DNA from: Halobacillus yeomjeoni
GTDB taxonomy: Bacteria > Bacillota > Bacilli > Bacillales > Halobacillaceae
Assembly: GCF_020171525.1 (NCBI RefSeq)
Contig: NZ_JAIVAI010000001.1
Span: 1,240,001 to 1,304,000, forward strand
DNA: 64,000 bases
Direction of reading: 5' to 3'
In this document: positions 8,228-16,822 of the stretch, piece by piece
Numbering within the stretch: position 1 is the stretch's first letter
Layout: each line of letters begins with the position of its first letter
Translations under genes and position numbers: made by a program
Notes under the pieces: generated by a model
The model's database searches: none
What the model was told of the DNA's origin: nothing
The model's input: the letters and a program-made list of their open reading frames with translations, nothing else

Positions 8228-9382
8228 TTATTCAAGAGTCAGTCTTTCAGAAATGTTTACATTTCTTTTGGCCATTTCTTTCATATATAAAGCACCCGGT
8301 ACGATCTGTTCAGGTGGATAAACACCCTTTTTAATAATGTCTTTTCTACCGATCATTTGTGCAACTACGGAAATCGTGTTCGCTGTCGCCCTTGCCATGG
8401 CAGTCACCTGATTTTCCCGATCTTTATAGGTGACCATTTCATATTGATAGGTGGCTTTATCGTTGTTTTTCCTTCCTCCTACTTGAACACGAAGAAGGAC
8501 GACGTCATCTTTGTCTTTCAAGTCCAGAATCGGATCTATCGTTTTTAACAACACGTCTCTCGGTTTCACAGCCACCCCGTTGACTTCCACAACATGCTCG
8601 TTGCCTGTCAGCTTCAAGTCGACGAGCAGTTTCATTTTGGCTGCGTGTCCTGGATAACGGATGGTTTTGTATTCGAGCGTTTCAATAGACGGGTACGATT
8701 TTATTAACGTCGATGTACCGCCTGATGTATGGAAAGCTTCCAATGGACCGAAACGATCGAAGTGAAGCTCTTCAAGTTCTGTCAAAGAATCAACGATTTG
8801 TTTCTTACCATTTCGAATGATTGTAGAAGCATCGGTGTAATGATCCAGCAATCCTTCCATTGAAAAAACATGATTATATTCTATCGGAGGATCTGGATGG
8901 ACAGGTATCCCTCCTACATACAAGCGAATGGACTCCAACTCATCCAATTGACCGACTCCATGGCCGGAAAGAATATTGATCATCCCCGGTGCGACACCTA
9001 AATCCGGAATGATGGTTACACCGGCAGCTTTCGCATCTTCATGAAGCTCAAGCACATGGTCAGTCACCTCCCCGATGTGTCCACCCAGGTCCACTGAACT
9101 GACTCCTACCTCTACAGCTGTACGCGCAACGATTTCATTGAATGAATAAAACAAAGCATTGATCACGACATCATAATTTTTGATGAAGGCTGCGAGTTCT
9201 TCGACATTCCCGGCATCTACTTTATAGGGGTGGATTTTTTCCGAATCGATCTTCTCACATACGAATTTTGCTCGATTGAAATCGATATCCGCCAAACCCA
9301 CTTTTTCAACACCAGCGCTTTGGACCAAGTCCCGTGCTGCTTCTTTCCCCATCAATCCCGATCCTAATACAGCTACTTTCAT
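8228..9382 (-). CDS. Lysine 6-dehydrogenase-like (saccharopine dehydrogenase family)
   Basis: 384-residue NAD(P)-dependent oxidoreductase of the saccharopine dehydrogenase family. The Rossmann motif [15 protein letters not shown] is at the N-terminus, followed by DLGGHIGEV and [18 protein letters not shown], which resemble Geobacillus lysine 6-dehydrogenase (LysDH). That enzyme oxidatively deaminates the epsilon amino group of L-lysine to 2-aminoadipate semialdehyde, which cyclises to piperideine-6-carboxylate. Last gene of a four-gene operon with an aldehyde dehydrogenase, a ThDP enzyme and an aminotransferase, which supports the lysine assignment. The start is the ATG at 9382, six bases after AAAGGGGTG. 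A different amino acid substrate cannot be excluded. Confidence 0.82.
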
Positions 9383-9421
9383 CGTCCGCACCCCTTTTTA
9401 ATTCGTTGTATCCAATACCCT

Positions 9422-10924
9422 TTATTCCACGTCAATTTGTGCACGTTGAAGTTTTCCACTGAAATCTACATAGACAGCCTTCCATTCTGTGAATACATCC
9501 AGCGCTGCAACACCTGAATCACGGTGACCGTTCCCCGTCCCCTTCGTTCCACCGAAAGGCAGATGAATTTCAGCACCTGTCGTACCTGCGTTCACATAAA
9601 CGATGCCTGTATCTAAATCTCGTTGAGCCTGGAAAACATGATTTACATTTTGAGTGAAAATTGAACTGGACAGTCCATACTCGACACTATTGTTGATTTC
9701 AATCGCTTCCTCTAAGCTGTTGATAGGAATCAATGAGACGACCGGTCCGAAAATTTCCTCCTGCGCAATGCGCATGCCCGGGTCTACATCCGTAAATAAA
9801 GTAGGAGCGAAATAGTTGCCACGCCCGTGTGCTCCACTTTCCATGATATAGCCTCCGGTCAGCAGTTTCGCCCCTTCTTCTTTTCCGACTTTAATGTAGT
9901 TTTTAATTTTCTCAAGACCCGCTTGATTGATGATCGGACCGACTTTGATCGATTCATCCAACCCGTTTCCGATGGTGAGTTTGGAAATCTCAATCATCAA
10001 CCGTTCTTCGAGTTTTTCTTTCAGGCTCTCATGGACCATGACACGGCTGCAGGCGGTACAACGTTGACCGCTTGTTCCAAACGCACTCCATAAAATACCT
10101 TCTACAGCTAAAGAAAGGTCGGCATCATCCATGACGATGACCGCATTTTTCCCACCCATCTCAAGAGACACCTTCTTCAACCGACTCCCACATTCAGCAG
10201 CAATTTTACGGCCGACTTCATTGGAACCCGTAAACGAGATGACCCGGATCGCTTCTTGTTCTACCATCGCTTGTCCGACCTTTGATCCAGAACCGAAAAC
10301 GACATTGAGAACGCCTTTCGGTAAACCTGATTCTTCAAAAATCCTGGCTAATTCATAGGCCATGATCGGTGTTTCGGTAGCAGGCTTCCAAATGACGGCA
10401 TTTCCAGCAACAATCGCAGGAAACGACTTCCACGTCGCGATGGCAATCGGAAAATTCCATGGGGTGATGATTCCTACAACGCCGACCGGAGCTCGGACAC
10501 TCATAGCGAATTTGTCTTTTAATTCAGATGGGGTGGTCTGGCCGAATAACCTCCGCCCTTCGCCCGCCATATAAAACGCCATATCAATTCCTTCCTGCAC
10601 TTCCCCACGCGCCTCTTCAATGACTTTTCCATTTTCCATGGTCAATAATTGAGCCAGTTTCTCTTTTCGTTCTTTCATCATCAGCCCAACTCTATAAAGG
10701 ACTTCAGCTCGCTGCGGCGCAGGAACGAGAGCCCATTCTCGCTGGGCTTTTTTCGCAGCTTCTACGGCCCCCTCCACATCCTGCTCAGCTGATAACGGGA
10801 CTTGAACCAGTTTTTCAGACGTCGCCGGGTTGGTTACCGCCGTGTATTTCCCTGAAGATGGAGCTTGCCAAAGTCCGCCGATATAATTAAGTAACTTTTC
10901 TTCCTTCATCCATTTTTTAGCCAT
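9422..10924 (-). CDS. NAD(P)-dependent aldehyde dehydrogenase, probable aminoadipate-semialdehyde dehydrogenase
   Basis: 500-residue class-3-fold aldehyde dehydrogenase. Visible: cofactor-binding TPWNFPIAIATWK (about residue 154), FTGSNEVG (231), general base Glu255 in LEMGGKN, catalytic Cys289 in SGQRCTACSR and the EEIFGPV motif. In this operon it would oxidise 2-aminoadipate semialdehyde (piperideine-6-carboxylate) made by the adjacent LysDH-like enzyme to 2-aminoadipate. It might also oxidise glutarate semialdehyde made by the ThDP enzyme, since no second aldehyde dehydrogenase is present in the cluster. The gap to the next gene is 39 bases; the ribosome site is GAGGGGG. The enzyme class is certain, the substrate inferred from context. 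Confidence 0.9.
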   Translation of the reverse strand: MAKKWMKEEKLLNYIGGLWQAPSSGKYTAVTNPATSEKLVQVPLSAEQDVEGAVEAAKKAQREWALVPAPQRAEVLYRVGLMMKERKEKLAQLLTMENGKVIEEARGEVQEGIDMAFYMAGEGRRLFGQTTPSELKDKFAMSVRAPVGVVGIITPWNFPIAIATWKSFPAIVAGNAVIWKPATETPIMAYELARIFEESGLPKGVLNVVFGSGSKVGQAMVEQEAIRVISFTGSNEVGRKIAAECGSRLKKVSLEMGGKNAVIVMDDADLSLAVEGILWSAFGTSGQRCTACSRVMVHESLKEKLEERLMIEISKLTIGNGLDESIKVGPIINQAGLEKIKNYIKVGKEEGAKLLTGGYIMESGAHGRGNYFAPTLFTDVDPGMRIAQEEIFGPVVSLIPINSLEEAIEINNSVEYGLSSSIFTQNVNHVFQAQRDLDTGIVYVNAGTTGAEIHLPFGGTKGTGNGHRDSGVAALDVFTEWKAVYVDFSGKLQRAQIDVE

Positions 10925-10945: not shown

Positions 10946-12604
10946 TTACTGCTTATGCCGTTTTCTCAACTGTTGAATCGTAGACGATACAGATATTTGT
11001 TCAGGATCCGTTTCCACTTCGATTACCACCGGCTTATCATAATTCAACGCTTCCAACAGAGCGCGTTCGAACTCTTCGAATCCACGCACATAAAAACCCG
11101 CAGCACCTAGATCTTCAGCAAATGTCGAAAAAGGAACATCACCAAGGTCGGTTCCGATTGTCTTATATGGATAATGGATTTCCTGGTGCATCCGTATCGT
11201 GCCGTACATTCGATTATTGAATATAATGCTGATGACGGGAATGTGGTAACGTACGGCGGTTTCCATCTCCTGCATCGTCATCATGAAGCCGCCATCTCCC
11301 GATAGTGAAACGACGGTTTTATCAGGATGGGCGAGTTTCGCTCCCAGTGCTGCCGGCATCCCATACCCCATCGCTCCAGAGGTAGGACCGATATAGGTGT
11401 TTTTTTCTTTGAACCGATAAAACTTATGAAGCCATCCTGCAAAGTTCCCGGCATCATTGGTAAGGATAGTGCCCGTTGGAAGCCTTTGCTCCAGAATGGA
11501 AATGATGCGGTAAAGATCACTCGACTTATTTTCATCATCGTGAAGCGTCATTTCATACTTGCGCCTCCGGCCTTCAGCCCATGCACTCCACACAGGCGTC
11601 ACGCCTAGATGCATAAATGATTCGAGCGCCTGCTCTGCATCTGCCACAATACCTAAATCAGGCGAATATACTTTTCCGATTGTGTCAAAGTCGATATCTA
11701 TGTGAACGAGCGTCTGCTCTTTGGAAAGAAGCGAATAATCCTGGGTCGTCACTTCCGATAATCGTGTTCCTACGGCTAATATCACATCAGATTCTTTTAC
11801 ACTTTCAATGATATTTTTATGTGCCCCAAGCCCAAGATGTCCGATATAAAGGTGGTGATGATTAGGAAATACATCATGCCTTCTAAATGCAGCCATGACA
11901 GGGAGATCATACTTTTCAGCGAACCCTACCAGCGCATCTTCTGCACCAGCAAGTTTCACACCACCACCTGCCAGTATCAAAGGTCTTTCAGCCTTGAGTA
12001 AAATTTGTTCTAAAAGATCGACTTCTTTTGATGAAGGACGTGGTGATGGACGAATGACTGGTTCACCGAATTCCATCTGCGCTTTTTTTACAAGCACGTC
12101 TTCAGGGAGGGAAACTACCACCGGACCGGGTCTTCCGGTACGCGCCACCCGGAATGCCCGTTGAACAAGCTCTGGAATCCTTGCCGGTTCTAGAATCTCA
12201 ACTGTCCATTTTGCGATCGGTTTAAAATATTGATCGAGATCGACTTCTTGAAACCCTTCTCTCCCTCTGAACTGACTATGGACTTGTCCTAGAAAAACCA
12301 CCATAGGGGTTGAATCCTGGGCAGCCGTATGGACGCCGATCGACAAATTTGAAGCCCCGACACCGCGGGTGGCCATCACGACCCCTGGATTCCCGCTTGC
12401 TTTGGCAAAACCCTCAGCCATGAATGAAGCTCCACCCTCATGCCTCGCTGAAACCAAATCCATAGAGGGCTCATCAAGAATCGCGTCCATCACAGGAAGG
12501 TAACTCTCTCCCGGCACGCAAAATACTTTTGTGACCGACTCCCTCTTCAAGCATTCAACAATCGCTTGAGCTCCGGATAAAATGTGAGCTTTTCTATCCA
12601 TCAT
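10946..12604 (-). CDS. Thiamine-diphosphate enzyme, acetolactate-synthase-like; candidate 2-oxoadipate decarboxylase
   Basis: 552 residues with the three-domain ThDP fold: N-terminal PYR domain with catalytic Glu56 in SARHEGGASF, a central Rossmann-like domain, and the C-terminal PP domain with the ThDP/Mg motif GDGGFMMT (436 on) closing at NN (463-464). The closest general resemblance is to acetolactate synthase large subunits, but there is no regulatory subunit gene and no ilv context. Lying between an aminotransferase and an aldehyde dehydrogenase, it is well placed to decarboxylate a 2-oxo acid, in my reading 2-oxoadipate to glutarate semialdehyde. Its start overlaps the aminotransferase stop (ATGA), indicating translational coupling. 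Fold certain, substrate inferred. Confidence 0.85.
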   Translation of the reverse strand: MMDRKAHILSGAQAIVECLKRESVTKVFCVPGESYLPVMDAILDEPSMDLVSARHEGGASFMAEGFAKASGNPGVVMATRGVGASNLSIGVHTAAQDSTPMVVFLGQVHSQFRGREGFQEVDLDQYFKPIAKWTVEILEPARIPELVQRAFRVARTGRPGPVVVSLPEDVLVKKAQMEFGEPVIRPSPRPSSKEVDLLEQILLKAERPLILAGGGVKLAGAEDALVGFAEKYDLPVMAAFRRHDVFPNHHHLYIGHLGLGAHKNIIESVKESDVILAVGTRLSEVTTQDYSLLSKEQTLVHIDIDFDTIGKVYSPDLGIVADAEQALESFMHLGVTPVWSAWAEGRRRKYEMTLHDDENKSSDLYRIISILEQRLPTGTILTNDAGNFAGWLHKFYRFKEKNTYIGPTSGAMGYGMPAALGAKLAHPDKTVVSLSGDGGFMMTMQEMETAVRYHIPVISIIFNNRMYGTIRMHQEIHYPYKTIGTDLGDVPFSTFAEDLGAAGFYVRGFEEFERALLEALNYDKPVVIEVETDPEQISVSSTIQQLRKRHKQ

Positions 12605-13779
12605 CCCCGGTCTCCCCCCGTCTGGATTCGTTTCATTCGTTCGACCGCTTCCACTAATCGTTCAATTGGTACTGAAAGAGAAATCCTTACAAAACCTTCC
12701 CCGTTCGGACCGAATGCCGTACCCGGGGTAAGGATGACGCCTGCTTCATCAAGCATTTTTTCTGCAAATGTCTGCGATGAAAACCCTTCTGGCACTTTAG
12801 CCCAAATAAAAAAAGTTCCTCTCGGCTTTTCTGCAGCCATTCCGATTTCCTTTAAAGCCGTGTGCATCCATTCCATCCGCTCTTTGTAAATTTGATTATT
12901 TTCATGAACGGAACGAAAATCACTCATCAGCGCTTCCGCTGCAGCTTTTTGTACAGCTAAAAATTGGCTCGTATCCGTGTTGCTCTTCACAACAGCCAAA
13001 GCACGGATCAATGCTTCATTTCCTACTACATATCCGATTCTCCATCCGGTCATGTTAAAGCTTTTCGAAAGAGATCCGAACTCAACCGACCGTTGTTTCG
13101 CACCAGGAACCTGCAACAGGCTTGGAGCCTTATAGTCTTCAAAAGTGACCAGATCATAGGCGGAATCCTGCATGATGCACAACTGGTGTTGTGCAGCAAA
13201 ATCAACAACTTCTTTGAAAGTTTCAAAAGAGACCGTCGCTCCGGTCGGATTACTGGGGTAATTGACCAATAATACCTTGGCACACTGTAAATCCTCTTCA
13301 TTTATAGAATCAAAATCAGGTTGGAACGCCCTTTCTTCATTCAATGGGAGAGAGATCACTTTTCCTTTCGCTAAATGTACGGCAGACCGATAGACCGGAT
13401 ACCCGGGGTCCGGGATGAGAACTCCATCATCAGGGTCGATCACCGCATGAATCATATGCGCAATGCCTTCCTTTGACCCCACTAAAGCCATGACTTCCGT
13501 ATCTGGGTCCAGCGAGACACCATAATGTTTTTGATAAAAAGAAGCCACAGCTTCTTTGAATTCACGACATCCTCCATAAGGAGAATAGCGATGATTCTGA
13601 GGTTTCTGCACTTCTCTGATTAAACGGTCGATAATGAATGCTGGTGTCGGCAGATCGGGGGCGCCTATCCCAAGATCTATGACATCCACCCCTTTTTCTT
13701 GCAGCTTTCTCTTTTTTTGTTGAAAGATTGAGAACAGATAAGGAGGCAAGCTATTCACTTGTGAAGATCCAAATTCCAT
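12601..13779 (-). CDS. Class I/II PLP aminotransferase, candidate 2-aminoadipate aminotransferase
   Basis: 392-residue fold-type I aminotransferase close to the LL-diaminopimelate/aspartate aminotransferase group. Visible: the SPYGG and GSKEG regions, NYPSNPTGA (173-181), MQDSAYD and the PLP-lysine Lys239 in GSLSKSFNMTGWRIGY. In this operon the expected amino donor is 2-aminoadipate, giving 2-oxoadipate for the downstream ThDP enzyme. First gene of the leftward operon. I choose the ATG at 13779, eight bases after GGAGG; the ATG at 13785 would be only two bases from it. Substrate inferred from neighbours. Confidence 0.88.
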   Translation of the reverse strand: MEFGSSQVNSLPPYLFSIFQQKKRKLQEKGVDVIDLGIGAPDLPTPAFIIDRLIREVQKPQNHRYSPYGGCREFKEAVASFYQKHYGVSLDPDTEVMALVGSKEGIAHMIHAVIDPDDGVLIPDPGYPVYRSAVHLAKGKVISLPLNEERAFQPDFDSINEEDLQCAKVLLVNYPSNPTGATVSFETFKEVVDFAAQHQLCIMQDSAYDLVTFEDYKAPSLLQVPGAKQRSVEFGSLSKSFNMTGWRIGYVVGNEALIRALAVVKSNTDTSQFLAVQKAAAEALMSDFRSVHENNQIYKERMEWMHTALKEIGMAAEKPRGTFFIWAKVPEGFSSQTFAEKMLDEAGVILTPGTAFGPNGEGFVRISLSVPIERLVEAVERMKRIQTGGDRG

Positions 13780-13910
13780 ACTCATGACCTCCAAACGAAA
13801 TTGACATTAAAATAATTGAAACCCACCACCTTGGTTTGTCCCATTGCTCTATCCTATTAAATGCATCTACATTTCATGTTAGGAGATTTTTCTTTTCTAT
13901 TTTTTAGAAA

Positions 13911-14196: not shown

Positions 14197-14365
14197 GGTA
14201 AGTAGAAATCTCTCACATTTACACTGGTCTTACGAAGATAGAAATTAATTATCGAAAAAATAAACAAACTTCATATTTTTTAAATTCATAATAGAAGAAA
14301 TCAGAGAATAAGATGGAGTAAAGCAACCCACAAATACTTTTACACCCAATTCATTTGTTGTTCCC

Positions 14366-14409
14366 AAGCCAGTAGGATTCATACGTCGTATGGGTTCTTC
14401 TGGCTTTTT
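14366..14409 (+). terminator. Terminator-like hairpin in the CoA-transferase leader
   Basis: AAGCCAG pairs with CTGGCTT, with further imperfect pairing of GGATTCATACG to CGTATGGGTTC, followed by TTTTT. It lies only about 20 bases before the CoA-transferase start codon and points toward it. It may end a short upstream RNA or act as an attenuator; I could not identify a riboswitch or T-box in the sequence ahead of it. Confidence 0.6.
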
Positions 14410-14429
14410 CCTATGAAAGAGGTGAAATG

Positions 14430-15617
14430 ATGAGAGCTCCATTAGAAGGTATCCGGGTCCTTGACCTATCTCGGGTACTTGCAGGTCCATATTGTTCGAT
14501 GATTTTAGGAGATTTAGGTGCAGAAGTCATAAAAGTAGAAGCTCCTGGAGGCAGTGATGAAACACGAGAATGGGGTCCTCCTTTCCAAGGAGGAGTCAGC
14601 GCCTACTATATATGCGCCAACCGCAACAAACAGAACATTACAGTCAACTTGAAGACTGGACAAGGAAAAGAAATCATAAGGCAGCTGATTCAAAAAAGTG
14701 ACGTCCTTCTTCACAATTTCAAAACAGGAACAATGGAACGGTTCGGTCTTGATTACGATTCTGTAAAAGAATGGAACCCAAAACTCGTTTATTGTTCGAT
14801 AACAGGCTTCGGGGAGACAGGTCCTTATAAACATTTACCAGGCTATGACTTCATCATCCAGGCGATGAGTGGGCTGATGAGCATTACTGGAAATGAAACA
14901 TCCGGCCCTCAAAAAATGGGAGTAGCCATCACAGATATTTTGACCGGGTTGTATGCATGCATAGGAATTCAAGCTGCTCTGTTGGAAAGAAATCACTCCG
15001 GATCAGGCCAGAAAATAGACTTATCATTGTACGATGCAGCCATCAGCTCACTCGTAAATATAGGCAGCAATTATTTGATGTCTGGACAACCCCCAATTAG
15101 ATTAGGCAACCATCATGCAAATATAGTCCCCTATCAAACGTTCGCATCCAATGATGGAGAAATGGTGATTGCCGTAGGAAATGACCAACAGTTCAAAGCT
15201 TTATGTGAAATCGTCGGTTTACCAGAGTTGGCTGTGGATTCGAGATTTCAAGATAATCGTTCACGTGTCTCCAATCGTTTCGAACTCTCAAACCTATTAC
15301 AACAGGCTTTCGCTAAACGCTCGACCCATTACTGGCAGGAAAAGTGTCACCAATCCTCCATTCCATTCGGCCCGATCCAGTCTGTCTCAGACCTTCCTTC
15401 AGACCCGCAGCTTAAGGAGAGAAACATGTTCATCTCCAGCCATCATCCGAAAGCTGGACAAATATCGATGATAGGAAGTCCATTGAAACTCTCGCGGACT
15501 CCGGTAGAAGTGACCCACCACCCTCCTGAACCGGGGGAGCATACAGTGGAAATATTAGGTGCATTAGGATATAGCCGCGAGTCCATCAATCAGATGAAAA
15601 AGAAGAACATCATTTAA
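14430..15617 (+). CDS. CaiB/BaiF family CoA-transferase, candidate glutarate CoA-transferase
   Basis: Class III CoA-transferase, about 395 residues, moving CoA between acids through an aspartyl intermediate. It opens with LEGIRVLDLSRVLAGPYCSM and GDLGAEVIKVE, the standard N-terminus; the catalytic Asp is in GYDFIIQAMSG (about residue 140), and RLGNHHANIVPYQTF matches the family. The human glutarate CoA-transferase SUGCT belongs here. Paired 11 bases upstream of a GCDH-like dehydrogenase, glutarate to glutaryl-CoA is the likely reaction. GAGGTG precedes two adjacent ATGs at 14427 and 14430; the second has the better spacing. The acid substrate is inferred. Confidence 0.88.
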   Translation: MRAPLEGIRVLDLSRVLAGPYCSMILGDLGAEVIKVEAPGGSDETREWGPPFQGGVSAYYICANRNKQNITVNLKTGQGKEIIRQLIQKSDVLLHNFKTGTMERFGLDYDSVKEWNPKLVYCSITGFGETGPYKHLPGYDFIIQAMSGLMSITGNETSGPQKMGVAITDILTGLYACIGIQAALLERNHSGSGQKIDLSLYDAAISSLVNIGSNYLMSGQPPIRLGNHHANIVPYQTFASNDGEMVIAVGNDQQFKALCEIVGLPELAVDSRFQDNRSRVSNRFELSNLLQQAFAKRSTHYWQEKCHQSSIPFGPIQSVSDLPSDPQLKERNMFISSHHPKAGQISMIGSPLKLSRTPVEVTHHPPEPGEHTVEILGALGYSRESINQMKKKNII

Positions 15618-15628
15618 GGAGTGTTACT

Positions 15629-16822
15629 ATGAATTTCGAATGGTCAGATGAACAACGGATGCTCAGAAAGACGGTCAGGGACTTTGTCGACCGTGAAATT
15701 ATGCCTCACATCGGAGAATGGGATGCAAAAGGCAAATGGAACCCCTCCGTCATGAATCAACTGGCGAATCTCGGTTTGATGGGAGTATGTATACCTACCA
15801 AGTACGGTGGCAGCGGGATGGATTACAACGCCCTGGCCATCGTCTGTGAAGAGTTGGAGAGAGGAGATACCGCTTTTCGGACAGCGGTTTCCGTCCATAC
15901 AGGATTAAACAGCATGACCCTCCTTCAGTGGGGAACCGAAGAGCAAAAAAGAAAATACTTGGGTCCCCAGGCCAGAGGTGAAAAAATCGGCGCTTTCGGT
16001 TTGACGGAGCCCGGAGCTGGTTCAGATGTCGCTGCATTGCAGACAACAGCCAGACGAGATGGAGACTTTTATATTTTAAACGGTCAAAAAACATGGATTT
16101 CATTATGTGATATCGCCGATCATTTCCTGGTATTTGCGTATACGGATAAAAAAATGAAACACCACGGCATCTCTGCCTTCATCGTTGAAAGGACAATGGA
16201 TGGCTTTTCCTCAAAAGCGACCAAAGGAAAATTAGGGATACGCGCAGGTAATACGGGAGAACTTTTCTTCGATCAATTGAAGGTTCCTGCAGAGAATCTC
16301 CTTGGGAAGGAAGGAGATGGGTTCAAAATCGCCATGTCTGCTTTAGATAGCGGACGTTTCACGGTTGCCGCTGGTGCATGTGGACAAATCATGGCTTGTT
16401 TGGAAGCAAGTGTGAATTATTGTCACGAGAGAAAGACGTTCGGAAAAGAAATCGGGAAACACCAATTAGTACAGCAGATGATTGCAAAAATGGAAGCAGG
16501 ACTGCAAATGAGCCGCCTCCTTGTTTATCGTGCTGGAGAACTTAAAAACAGCGGCGTGAGAAACACAAGAGAAACGTCATTAGCTAAATGGCAGGCCTGT
16601 GATTTTGCCAATCAAGCCGCTGATGATGCGGTGCAAATACATGGGGCTTACGGTTACTCGAATGAATATCCGGTTGAAAGGTATTTGAGGAATTCCAAAG
16701 CTCCTGTCATCTATGAAGGGACCCGGGAAATTCATACAATCATGCAAGCTGAATATGTCCTTGGATATCGAAAAGATAAACCACTAAACAAAATGCTACC
16801 AGCATGGGATCCCGATGCTTAA
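15629..16822 (+). CDS. Acyl-CoA dehydrogenase, glutaryl-CoA dehydrogenase-like
   Basis: 397-residue FAD-dependent acyl-CoA dehydrogenase. Visible: FGLTEPGAGSD (FAD/substrate region), the WIS motif, and the catalytic base Glu363 in YEGTREIH. The segment ELERGDTAFRTAVSV aligns by eye with human glutaryl-CoA dehydrogenase (ELERVDSGYRSAMSV); Arg84 and Ser88 correspond to Arg94 and Ser98, which bind the distal carboxylate there. This favours glutaryl-CoA (oxidation and decarboxylation to crotonyl-CoA) over simple acyl-CoAs. It is in an operon with the CaiB-type CoA-transferase and has a clear GGAG ribosome site. The C-terminus reads more like general short-chain dehydrogenases, so other dicarboxyl-CoA substrates remain possible. 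Confidence 0.9.
   Translation: MNFEWSDEQRMLRKTVRDFVDREIMPHIGEWDAKGKWNPSVMNQLANLGLMGVCIPTKYGGSGMDYNALAIVCEELERGDTAFRTAVSVHTGLNSMTLLQWGTEEQKRKYLGPQARGEKIGAFGLTEPGAGSDVAALQTTARRDGDFYILNGQKTWISLCDIADHFLVFAYTDKKMKHHGISAFIVERTMDGFSSKATKGKLGIRAGNTGELFFDQLKVPAENLLGKEGDGFKIAMSALDSGRFTVAAGACGQIMACLEASVNYCHERKTFGKEIGKHQLVQQMIAKMEAGLQMSRLLVYRAGELKNSGVRNTRETSLAKWQACDFANQAADDAVQIHGAYGYSNEYPVERYLRNSKAPVIYEGTREIHTIMQAEYVLGYRKDKPLNKMLPAWDPDA

Follow-up and report, generated by a model that had tools for sequence, protein, structure and literature searches.

Gene content and organization of the locus

We analysed a 64,000-nucleotide stretch of the Halobacillus yeomjeoni genome (contig NZ_JAIVAI010000001.1, positions 1,240,001 to 1,304,000 of the forward strand; hereafter the window), in which a gene for a thiamine diphosphate (ThDP)-dependent enzyme similar to acetolactate synthase is embedded in a cluster of putative lysine-degradation genes. 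The gene codes for 552 amino acids on the minus strand; over these positions the plus strand is interrupted by many stops. The other genes of its four-gene operon code for a class I aminotransferase (AT), an aldehyde dehydrogenase (ALDH) and a homologue of L-lysine 6-dehydrogenase (LysDH) (Table 1). The AT stop and the ThDP gene start share 4 bp, ATGA, at 12604-12601, and a gap of 21 bp separates the ThDP gene stop from the ALDH start, in agreement with a preliminary description of the locus that had reported both the translational coupling and the ALDH gene that follows. The gap between ALDH and LysDH is 39 bp when counted from an ATG at 9382; the open reading frame (ORF) was called from a GTG at 9391, but the ATG is preceded by AAAAGGGG and is the likelier start. 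The LysDH homologue as the fourth operon gene and the two genes divergent from the operon, which start at 14427 and code for a class III CoA-transferase and an acyl-CoA dehydrogenase, extend the preliminary description. The CoA-transferase start is located 632 bp upstream of the AT gene. The arrangement is not due to chance, since many genomes show these neighbours again.

Table 1. Features of the locus, with coordinates in the window
Feature	Coordinates	Strand	Evidence
Class I aminotransferase (AT), predicted 2-aminoadipate aminotransferase; operon gene 1	12601..13794	-	PF00155, NF006756; substrate inferred
ThDP enzyme, PRK08199/NF006052, predicted 2-oxoadipate decarboxylase; operon gene 2	10946..12604	-	Family, tree, residues, model
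Aldehyde dehydrogenase (ALDH), predicted 2-aminoadipate semialdehyde / piperideine-6-carboxylate dehydrogenase	9422..10924	-	PF00171
L-lysine 6-dehydrogenase homologue (LysDH); operon gene 4	8228..9382	-	PDB sequence match 3abi, Sacchrp_dh domains
Class III CoA-transferase, predicted succinyl-CoA:glutarate CoA-transferase	14427..15617	+	NF052585, 9br6
Acyl-CoA dehydrogenase, predicted glutaryl-CoA dehydrogenase	15629..16822	+	NCBIfam scores, 3mpi alignment
Terminator-like hairpin and T run, possible attenuator	14365..14409	+	Fold of -22.4 kcal/mol, recurrence in related loci

The absence of a small subunit gene, as described earlier, holds for the entire window: the Escherichia coli ilvH and ilvN sequences had no tblastn match (E<=1) anywhere in the 64 kb. 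The 3.27 Mb genome has its own ilvB at C1:1307014 (L130), about 3 kb past the end of the window, with a match to both ilvH and ilvN directly behind it and with ilvE and leuA, recognised by eye in the translation, beside it.

Family assignment and active-site residues

The ThDP protein has three TPP-enzyme Pfam domains with scores well above the cut-offs (PF02776, 123 bits; PF00205, 130 bits; PF02775, 155 bits), an activating glutamate (E56) and the GDG...NN motif (GDG 436-438, N464), which places it in the PDC/AHAS-type superfamily and bears out the motifs and architecture noted in the preliminary description. Among the 25 NCBIfam families listed, only NF006052 (PRK08199) scored above its own cut-off (744.9 bits versus 539). 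This model is named "thiamine pyrophosphate protein" and carries no function. Every model for acetohydroxyacid (acetolactate) synthase (AHAS) among the 25 families was below its own cut-off, including TIGR00118 for the biosynthetic large subunit (420.2 bits versus 538.35). Indolepyruvate decarboxylase (TIGR03393) was rejected with 92.7 bits at the window locus against a cut-off of 946. The AlphaFold2 model was of high quality (pLDDT 94.6), and its best matches among solved structures were BbmA, described as a "ThDP-dependent HKA synthase", with a Z of 47.7 and AHAS with a Z of 45.5. The fold does not discriminate between functions, as AHAS, glyoxylate carboligase, benzaldehyde lyase and BbmA all yielded Z values of about 43-48.

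We inferred a tree by a quick method from 80 PRK08199 family sequences and 13 references (AHAS, glyoxylate carboligase (GCL), pyruvate oxidase (POX), oxalyl-CoA decarboxylase (OXC), AruI-annotated sequences, Xsc, AlsS, IolD and the genome's own paralogues). A branch with an SH-aLRT support of 100 separates the 80 family members from all 13 references, IlvB/IlvI included, while the order among the references is unsure because of the quick method and the long branches of most of them. To map residues, we aligned the protein with solved AHAS chains and with AHAS, GCL and PoxB sequences. The equivalents of Met460, Trp464 and Arg276 of AHAS (E. coli AHAS II numbering) are Thr469, His473 and Val285, whereas the protein retains Phe118, Gln119 and Lys132 from the AHAS site. 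The preliminary description had named a placement within true AHAS with conserved pyruvate-specific residues as a result that would speak against a decarboxylase; both the tree and the replaced residues came out the other way. Taken together, the scores below cut-off, the tree placement, the lack of a small subunit gene in the window and the separate genomic ilvB with its small subunit led us to reject a true AHAS.

Residue conservation was counted in 37 LysDH-linked Bacillota sequences, 20 other Bacillota sequences and 59 sequences from other phyla. Two Bacillota rows repeat other loci (L144 = L036, L148 = L039); they were excluded from the tree and the neighbour counts but retained here. Across these 116 rows T469, I470, R471, H473, R115, R241 and R281 are near-invariant; the three paralogues encoded in the same genome as the window carry other residues at T469, H473 and R115. 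Thr469 is kept in 37/37, 18/20 and 58/59 sequences of the three groups, respectively, His473 in 36/37, 19/20 and 59/59, Arg115 in 37/37, 18/20 and 57/59, Arg80 in 37/37, 18/20 and 59/59, and Arg241 in all 116. The collection scan used the patterns PTSGAMGY and YGTIRMHQ and kept the best 80 of the matches listed, so that in the loci it supplied the residues within these two patterns are conserved partly by construction. Judged from the alignment, Thr469, His473, Arg115, Arg241 and Arg80 are candidates for a carboxylate pocket. Glu33 is located at the position of a Gly in AHAS, of Asp27 in E. coli PoxB and of a Val in the AruI-annotated sequences; as a mark of a decarboxylase it is only suggestive, since PoxB has an acidic residue there but the AruI-annotated sequences do not.

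Conservation of the gene neighbourhood

Neighbouring genes were counted in 67 Bacillota ThDP loci with tblastn at set identity thresholds, because greedy ORF calling missed some of the genes located under antisense ORFs. AT was found in 46 loci, ALDH in 43, LysDH in 41, and the CoA-transferase and the acyl-CoA dehydrogenase in 38 each; in 44 of the 67, AT and the ThDP gene are direct neighbours on one strand. When only the 57 loci with a ThDP protein identity of at least 55% are considered, the numbers are 46, 43, 41, 37 and 37.

We also examined co-occurrence in 61 genomes, the strain itself and 60 relatives (E<=1e-100 for the ThDP protein and the CoA-transferase, E<=1e-60 for LysDH). The ThDP gene was present in 33 and LysDH in 34 of these, with both in 32, the ThDP gene only in 1, LysDH only in 2 and neither in 26. 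The CoA-transferase was present in 33/33 genomes with the ThDP gene versus 6/28 of the others. As the 61 genomes are kin, Fisher values overstate the independence of these observations.

In a broader sample of the class, LysDH and ALDH on the one hand and AT and the ThDP gene on the other persist separately. Five of the 17 genomes with LysDH only were fetched (L187-L191), and in all of them LysDH is adjacent to the same ALDH in a locus without AT and the ThDP gene. Exceptions to this partnership are L151 and L152, the two LysDH-only relatives, for which the ORF map shows no ALDH next to LysDH, and L192, in which the only ALDH is 39% identical and located farther off. Among the 7 genomes with the ThDP gene only, AT is located beside it in four (L174-L177), which have neither the cluster-type ALDH nor a LysDH in the genome at E<=1e-100; the other three (L179, L180 and L182) have no such AT. 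Two further loci (L117 and L183) contain the AT-ThDP pair with LysDH elsewhere in the genome. Because each pair persists without the other, the operon looks like two modules, of which LysDH-ALDH would make aminoadipate and AT-ThDP would use it.

A predicted pathway for lysine degradation

From these observations we infer a pathway in which the operon would serve lysine degradation and the ThDP gene probably encodes a non-oxidative 2-oxoadipate decarboxylase. The LysDH homologue would convert lysine to 2-aminoadipate semialdehyde (piperideine-6-carboxylate), ALDH would oxidise this to 2-aminoadipate and AT would convert 2-aminoadipate to 2-oxoadipate. The ThDP enzyme would then yield CO2 and glutarate semialdehyde, which would be oxidised to glutarate by the ALDH of the operon, if this may additionally accept glutarate semialdehyde, or by another ALDH in the genome. 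Finally, the divergently encoded CoA-transferase would produce glutaryl-CoA from glutarate and the acyl-CoA dehydrogenase would convert it to crotonyl-CoA. The preliminary description had favoured a decarboxylase that uses what the aminotransferase produces and had named 2-oxoadipate as a fitting substrate, and this assignment is supported by the tree, the residues and the conserved lysine-type neighbours.

The main argument comes from the CoA-transferase. An oxidative dehydrogenase complex would give glutaryl-CoA directly from 2-oxoadipate, and a glutarate CoA-transferase would then be unneeded for lysine. The steady presence of the CoA-transferase therefore suggests that free glutarate is made, and hence that 2-oxoadipate would first be decarboxylated to the aldehyde.

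Each step has a conserved homologue, whose substrate is predicted from the following similarities. AT matches PF00155 (231 bits) and NF006756 (507.6 bits versus a cut-off of 507). ALDH matches PF00171 with 579 bits, and none of the 25 NCBIfam families listed is above its own cut-off; the genome contains 11 ALDH-type matches, that of the cluster included, with no second ALDH within the cluster. The LysDH homologue contains Sacchrp_dh domains, and its best sequence match in the PDB is 3abi (137 bits), titled L-lysine 6-dehydrogenase and originating from Pyrococcus horikoshii (excerpt of PMC10413350). In the fold comparison carboxyspermidine dehydrogenase matched it equally well, and its structural model is weak (pLDDT 71), for which reasons the LysDH name rests on sequence and context. 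The best PDB sequence match of the CoA-transferase is a succinate--hydroxymethylglutarate CoA-transferase (9br6, 358 bits), human SUGCT. In an alignment of the acyl-CoA dehydrogenase with glutaryl-CoA dehydrogenase 3mpi, an Arg is present at the presumed carboxylate-binding position; other acyl-CoA dehydrogenases score equally.

Family members in other phyla

A further 60 loci, mostly from Proteobacteria, were recovered from the best 80 matches of the collection scan. A piperideine-6-carboxylate dehydrogenase above cut-off (805-829 bits versus 730) is encoded in 8 of the 60, all from Proteobacteria, and in 5 of the 8 it is located directly beside the ThDP gene (L057, L071, L073, L075 and L082). 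Six of the 8 loci also contain relatives of the saccharopine-dehydrogenase-like gene and the AsnC-type regulator of L071, as judged from sequence clusters with Pfam run on L071 alone. In 8 other loci, from rhizobia and their relatives, a CoA-transferase gene is located directly upstream of the ThDP gene, with a 4-bp overlap in 4 of them. The NF052585 scores of three rhizobial CoA-transferases were 689, 712.5 and 800.5 bits, one of which is above the cut-off of 750.

Evidence against the prediction and alternative functions

Several observations weigh against the proposed 2-oxoadipate decarboxylase. Two of the downstream enzymes are below curated cut-offs: for the CoA-transferase the best NCBIfam family is NF052585 (SucGlutTfsCaiB), at 457 bits versus 750, and the acyl-CoA dehydrogenase scores 386 bits versus 640 for acryloyl-CoA reductase and 373 versus 470 for GlutCoADH_Des. 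The pathway needs two aldehyde oxidations, whereas the cluster in the window has one ALDH. A second, SSADH-like ALDH, as the non-oxidative route predicts, occurs in only 9 of the 67 loci; one of these is the source of the query, and in 7 the CoA-transferase and the acyl-CoA dehydrogenase are present as well. Nor does the sequence single out a residue for the distal carboxylate of 2-oxoadipate. The neighbourhood is incomplete in part of the family: AT, ALDH and LysDH were all missing at the thresholds used from the 10 of the 67 Bacillota loci with a ThDP protein identity below 55%, and likewise from six loci with 55-64% identity (L046, L048, L122, L126, L185 and L186). In 200 genomes from across the class the link to LysDH is looser: the ThDP gene was present in 14 (E<=1e-160), LysDH in 24 (E<=1e-100) and both in 7, an association with a Fisher p value of 3e-4 uncorrected for kinship. 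Two of these 7 genomes (G110 and G212) have no CoA-transferase at E<=1e-90.

Outside the Bacillota set, 42 of the 60 loci have neither lysine-linked neighbour and 18 have one, two distant CoA-transferases included. Two divergent PRK08199 members with 47% identity (L054 and L127) adjoin genes whose sequences resemble UbiX/UbiD. L127, one of the two other-Bacillota rows without Arg80, has an Ala at this position, and the two members suggest a different reaction within PRK08199. Another member (L109) is located near genes for a hydantoinase B and a flavin adenine dinucleotide (FAD) oxidoreductase. Since some members do not fit, the function is claimed for the lysine-linked clade and not for the whole of PRK08199. 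The known alternative enzyme, HglS (PF07063), had no match in any of the 61 genomes of the strain and its relatives, which speaks for the ThDP route, but was present together with the ThDP gene in 3 of 15 selected genomes (L064, L109 and L113). L064 also has lysine-type neighbours, so that one route does not preclude the other.

An unlikely but not negligible alternative is that the ThDP enzyme decarboxylates another 2-oxo acid supplied by the adjacent AT, the pair being a broad module for which the lysine genes are frequent but not exclusive partners. The AT-ThDP pairs without an adjacent LysDH (L117, L174-L177 and L183) are in line with this, as are the TAXI-TRAP and agmatinase-like genes near two of them (L174 and L183, respectively), the surroundings of L109 and the absence of LysDH from 7 of the 14 class-level genomes with the ThDP gene. 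Among close relatives with at least 55% identity, however, LysDH is present in 41/57 and the CoA-transferase in 37/57 loci, and lysine-type neighbours are found in some Proteobacteria. Moreover, among 18 class-level genomes a CoA-transferase homologue (E<=1e-90) was present in 13, namely in 10/12 with the ThDP gene, including all 7 without LysDH, and in 3/6 with LysDH only.

We consider it very improbable that the protein is a carboligase of the acetolactate synthase or a related type, forming acetolactate from pyruvate or joining 2-oxoadipate with pyruvate into an acyloin. The nearest solved structures, BbmA and AHAS, and the retained Phe118, Gln119 and Lys132 could be read in this way. They are countered by the AHAS models, all below cut-off among the families listed, by the position outside AHAS in the tree, by the replaced equivalents of Trp464, Met460 and Arg276, by Glu33 at the position of the AHAS Gly and of Asp27 in E. 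coli PoxB, and by the small subunit, which is missing from the window and accompanies ilvB elsewhere in the genome. Least probable of all, and hardly to be expected, is an action on a CoA thioester in concert with the class III CoA-transferase, by analogy with oxalyl-CoA decarboxylase and formyl-CoA transferase. Here the model would be frc-oxc of E. coli, where the same two superfamilies are encoded side by side, together with the 4-bp overlap of the CoA-transferase and ThDP genes in four rhizobial-type loci. Yet the CoA-transferase resembles Frc less than it does the succinate--glutarate type, and E. coli Oxc falls outside the family on a long branch and lacks the family motifs; from its tree position and the missing motifs we rejected a pairing of the oxalyl-CoA decarboxylase type.

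Other features of the locus and of related loci

The terminator-like hairpin in the window ends about 20 nt ahead of the CoA-transferase start. A strong hairpin of this type, with GCCAG/CTGGC at the base of its stem and with a T run, was found about 20-60 nt before this start in 28 of 37 loci (for example L118, L131, L142, L035, L042, L043, L045 and L047), with the upper stem altered in other genera. A script counted 32 of 37, which comprises these 28, three loci with other hairpins (L049, L117 and L149) and one spurious hit (L038); in the remaining 5 it detected no hairpin upstream of the CoA-transferase. Rfam yielded no match in the window between 7000 and 19000. The element may be a transcription attenuator, and the main claim is independent of it.

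Individual loci show additional gene combinations. In L174, TAXI-TRAP transporter genes and a gene for an IclR regulator are located near the AT-ThDP pair, which has no adjacent LysDH, and in L183 a sigma-54 activator and an agmatinase-like gene are located near such a pair, also without an adjacent LysDH. The LysDH homologue at G025:C1:2561173-2562314 is split over two frames with the rest of the cluster intact, representing either a decayed gene or a sequencing error. In Virgibacillus oceani (L035, 5628-8449), genes for a tryptophan dioxygenase, a cyclase-family protein and a kynureninase-like protein adjoin the lysine cluster.

Comparison with known systems

A precedent is AruH-AruI of the arginine transaminase pathway, in which an AHAS-like ThDP decarboxylase, acting on 5-guanidino-2-oxopentanoate, is coupled to an aminotransferase and its product passes to an ALDH. 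In a plasmid record (L170), an aminotransferase gene and an annotated AruI-type gene are separated by 2 bp. The AT-ThDP-ALDH logic and the chemistry are thus not new in kind; AruI differs from the protein studied here in its separate tree branch, in a Val in place of Glu33, in other motifs and in serving arginine rather than lysine. Biosynthetic AHAS (IlvB/IlvI) shares the three-domain fold, the ThDP-activating Glu, Phe118-Gln119 and Lys132, but differs in the small subunit, in Trp464, Met460 and Arg276, in the family score and in forming a separate clade.

Two systems have 2-oxoadipate as the common point. The 2-oxoadipate dehydrogenase complex of the DHTKD1/OGDH type also decarboxylates it with ThDP, but is oxidative and multi-subunit, gives glutaryl-CoA directly and needs no glutarate CoA-transferase. 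The hydroxyglutarate synthase HglS (DUF1338), described in an excerpt of PMC7286885 as converting 2-oxoadipate to D-2-hydroxyglutarate with loss of CO2 in bacterial lysine degradation, would resemble the predicted ThDP enzyme in consuming 2-oxoadipate and removing CO2, and differs in being an iron enzyme of another fold with a different product.

For the first two steps, Ruegeria pomeroyi provides a functionally verified lysine dehydrogenase (lysdh, SPO0234) and aminoadipic semialdehyde dehydrogenase (aasadh, SPO0235) on neighbouring locus tags, which give aminoadipate (excerpts of PMC4334477); these steps therefore correspond to a known pair. Unlike the route proposed here, aminoadipate serves as an osmolyte under high salt in R. 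pomeroyi, and the passages on these genes mention no ThDP enzyme (PMC4334477).

Implications for the PRK08199 family and the Bacillaceae

Among the titles and abstract starts listed by strict phrase searches of the open-licence literature, none mentions a ThDP enzyme of this kind, which is weak evidence of absence; the matches included work on plants and a diatom, and a paper on 3-oxoadipate (beta-ketoadipate) rather than 2-oxoadipate. We lean towards the view that PRK08199 includes a natural ThDP-dependent 2-oxoadipate decarboxylase, a third bacterial route out of 2-oxoadipate in addition to HglS and the oxidative complex, along with a complete pathway from LysDH to glutarate that is common to Bacillota and some Proteobacteria. 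The prediction is testable with one protein and one substrate. An enzyme converting 2-oxoadipate to glutarate semialdehyde would be useful for making glutarate and C5 chemicals; an engineered route to such products uses 2-oxo-acid chain extension and decarboxylation (cited in an excerpt of PMC5974017). If the prediction is true, it would assign a function to part of a family that currently has no name other than "thiamine pyrophosphate protein" and is readily confused with acetolactate synthase, and in many Bacillaceae it would complete lysine degradation, starting with lysine 6-dehydrogenase and ending at crotonyl-CoA.

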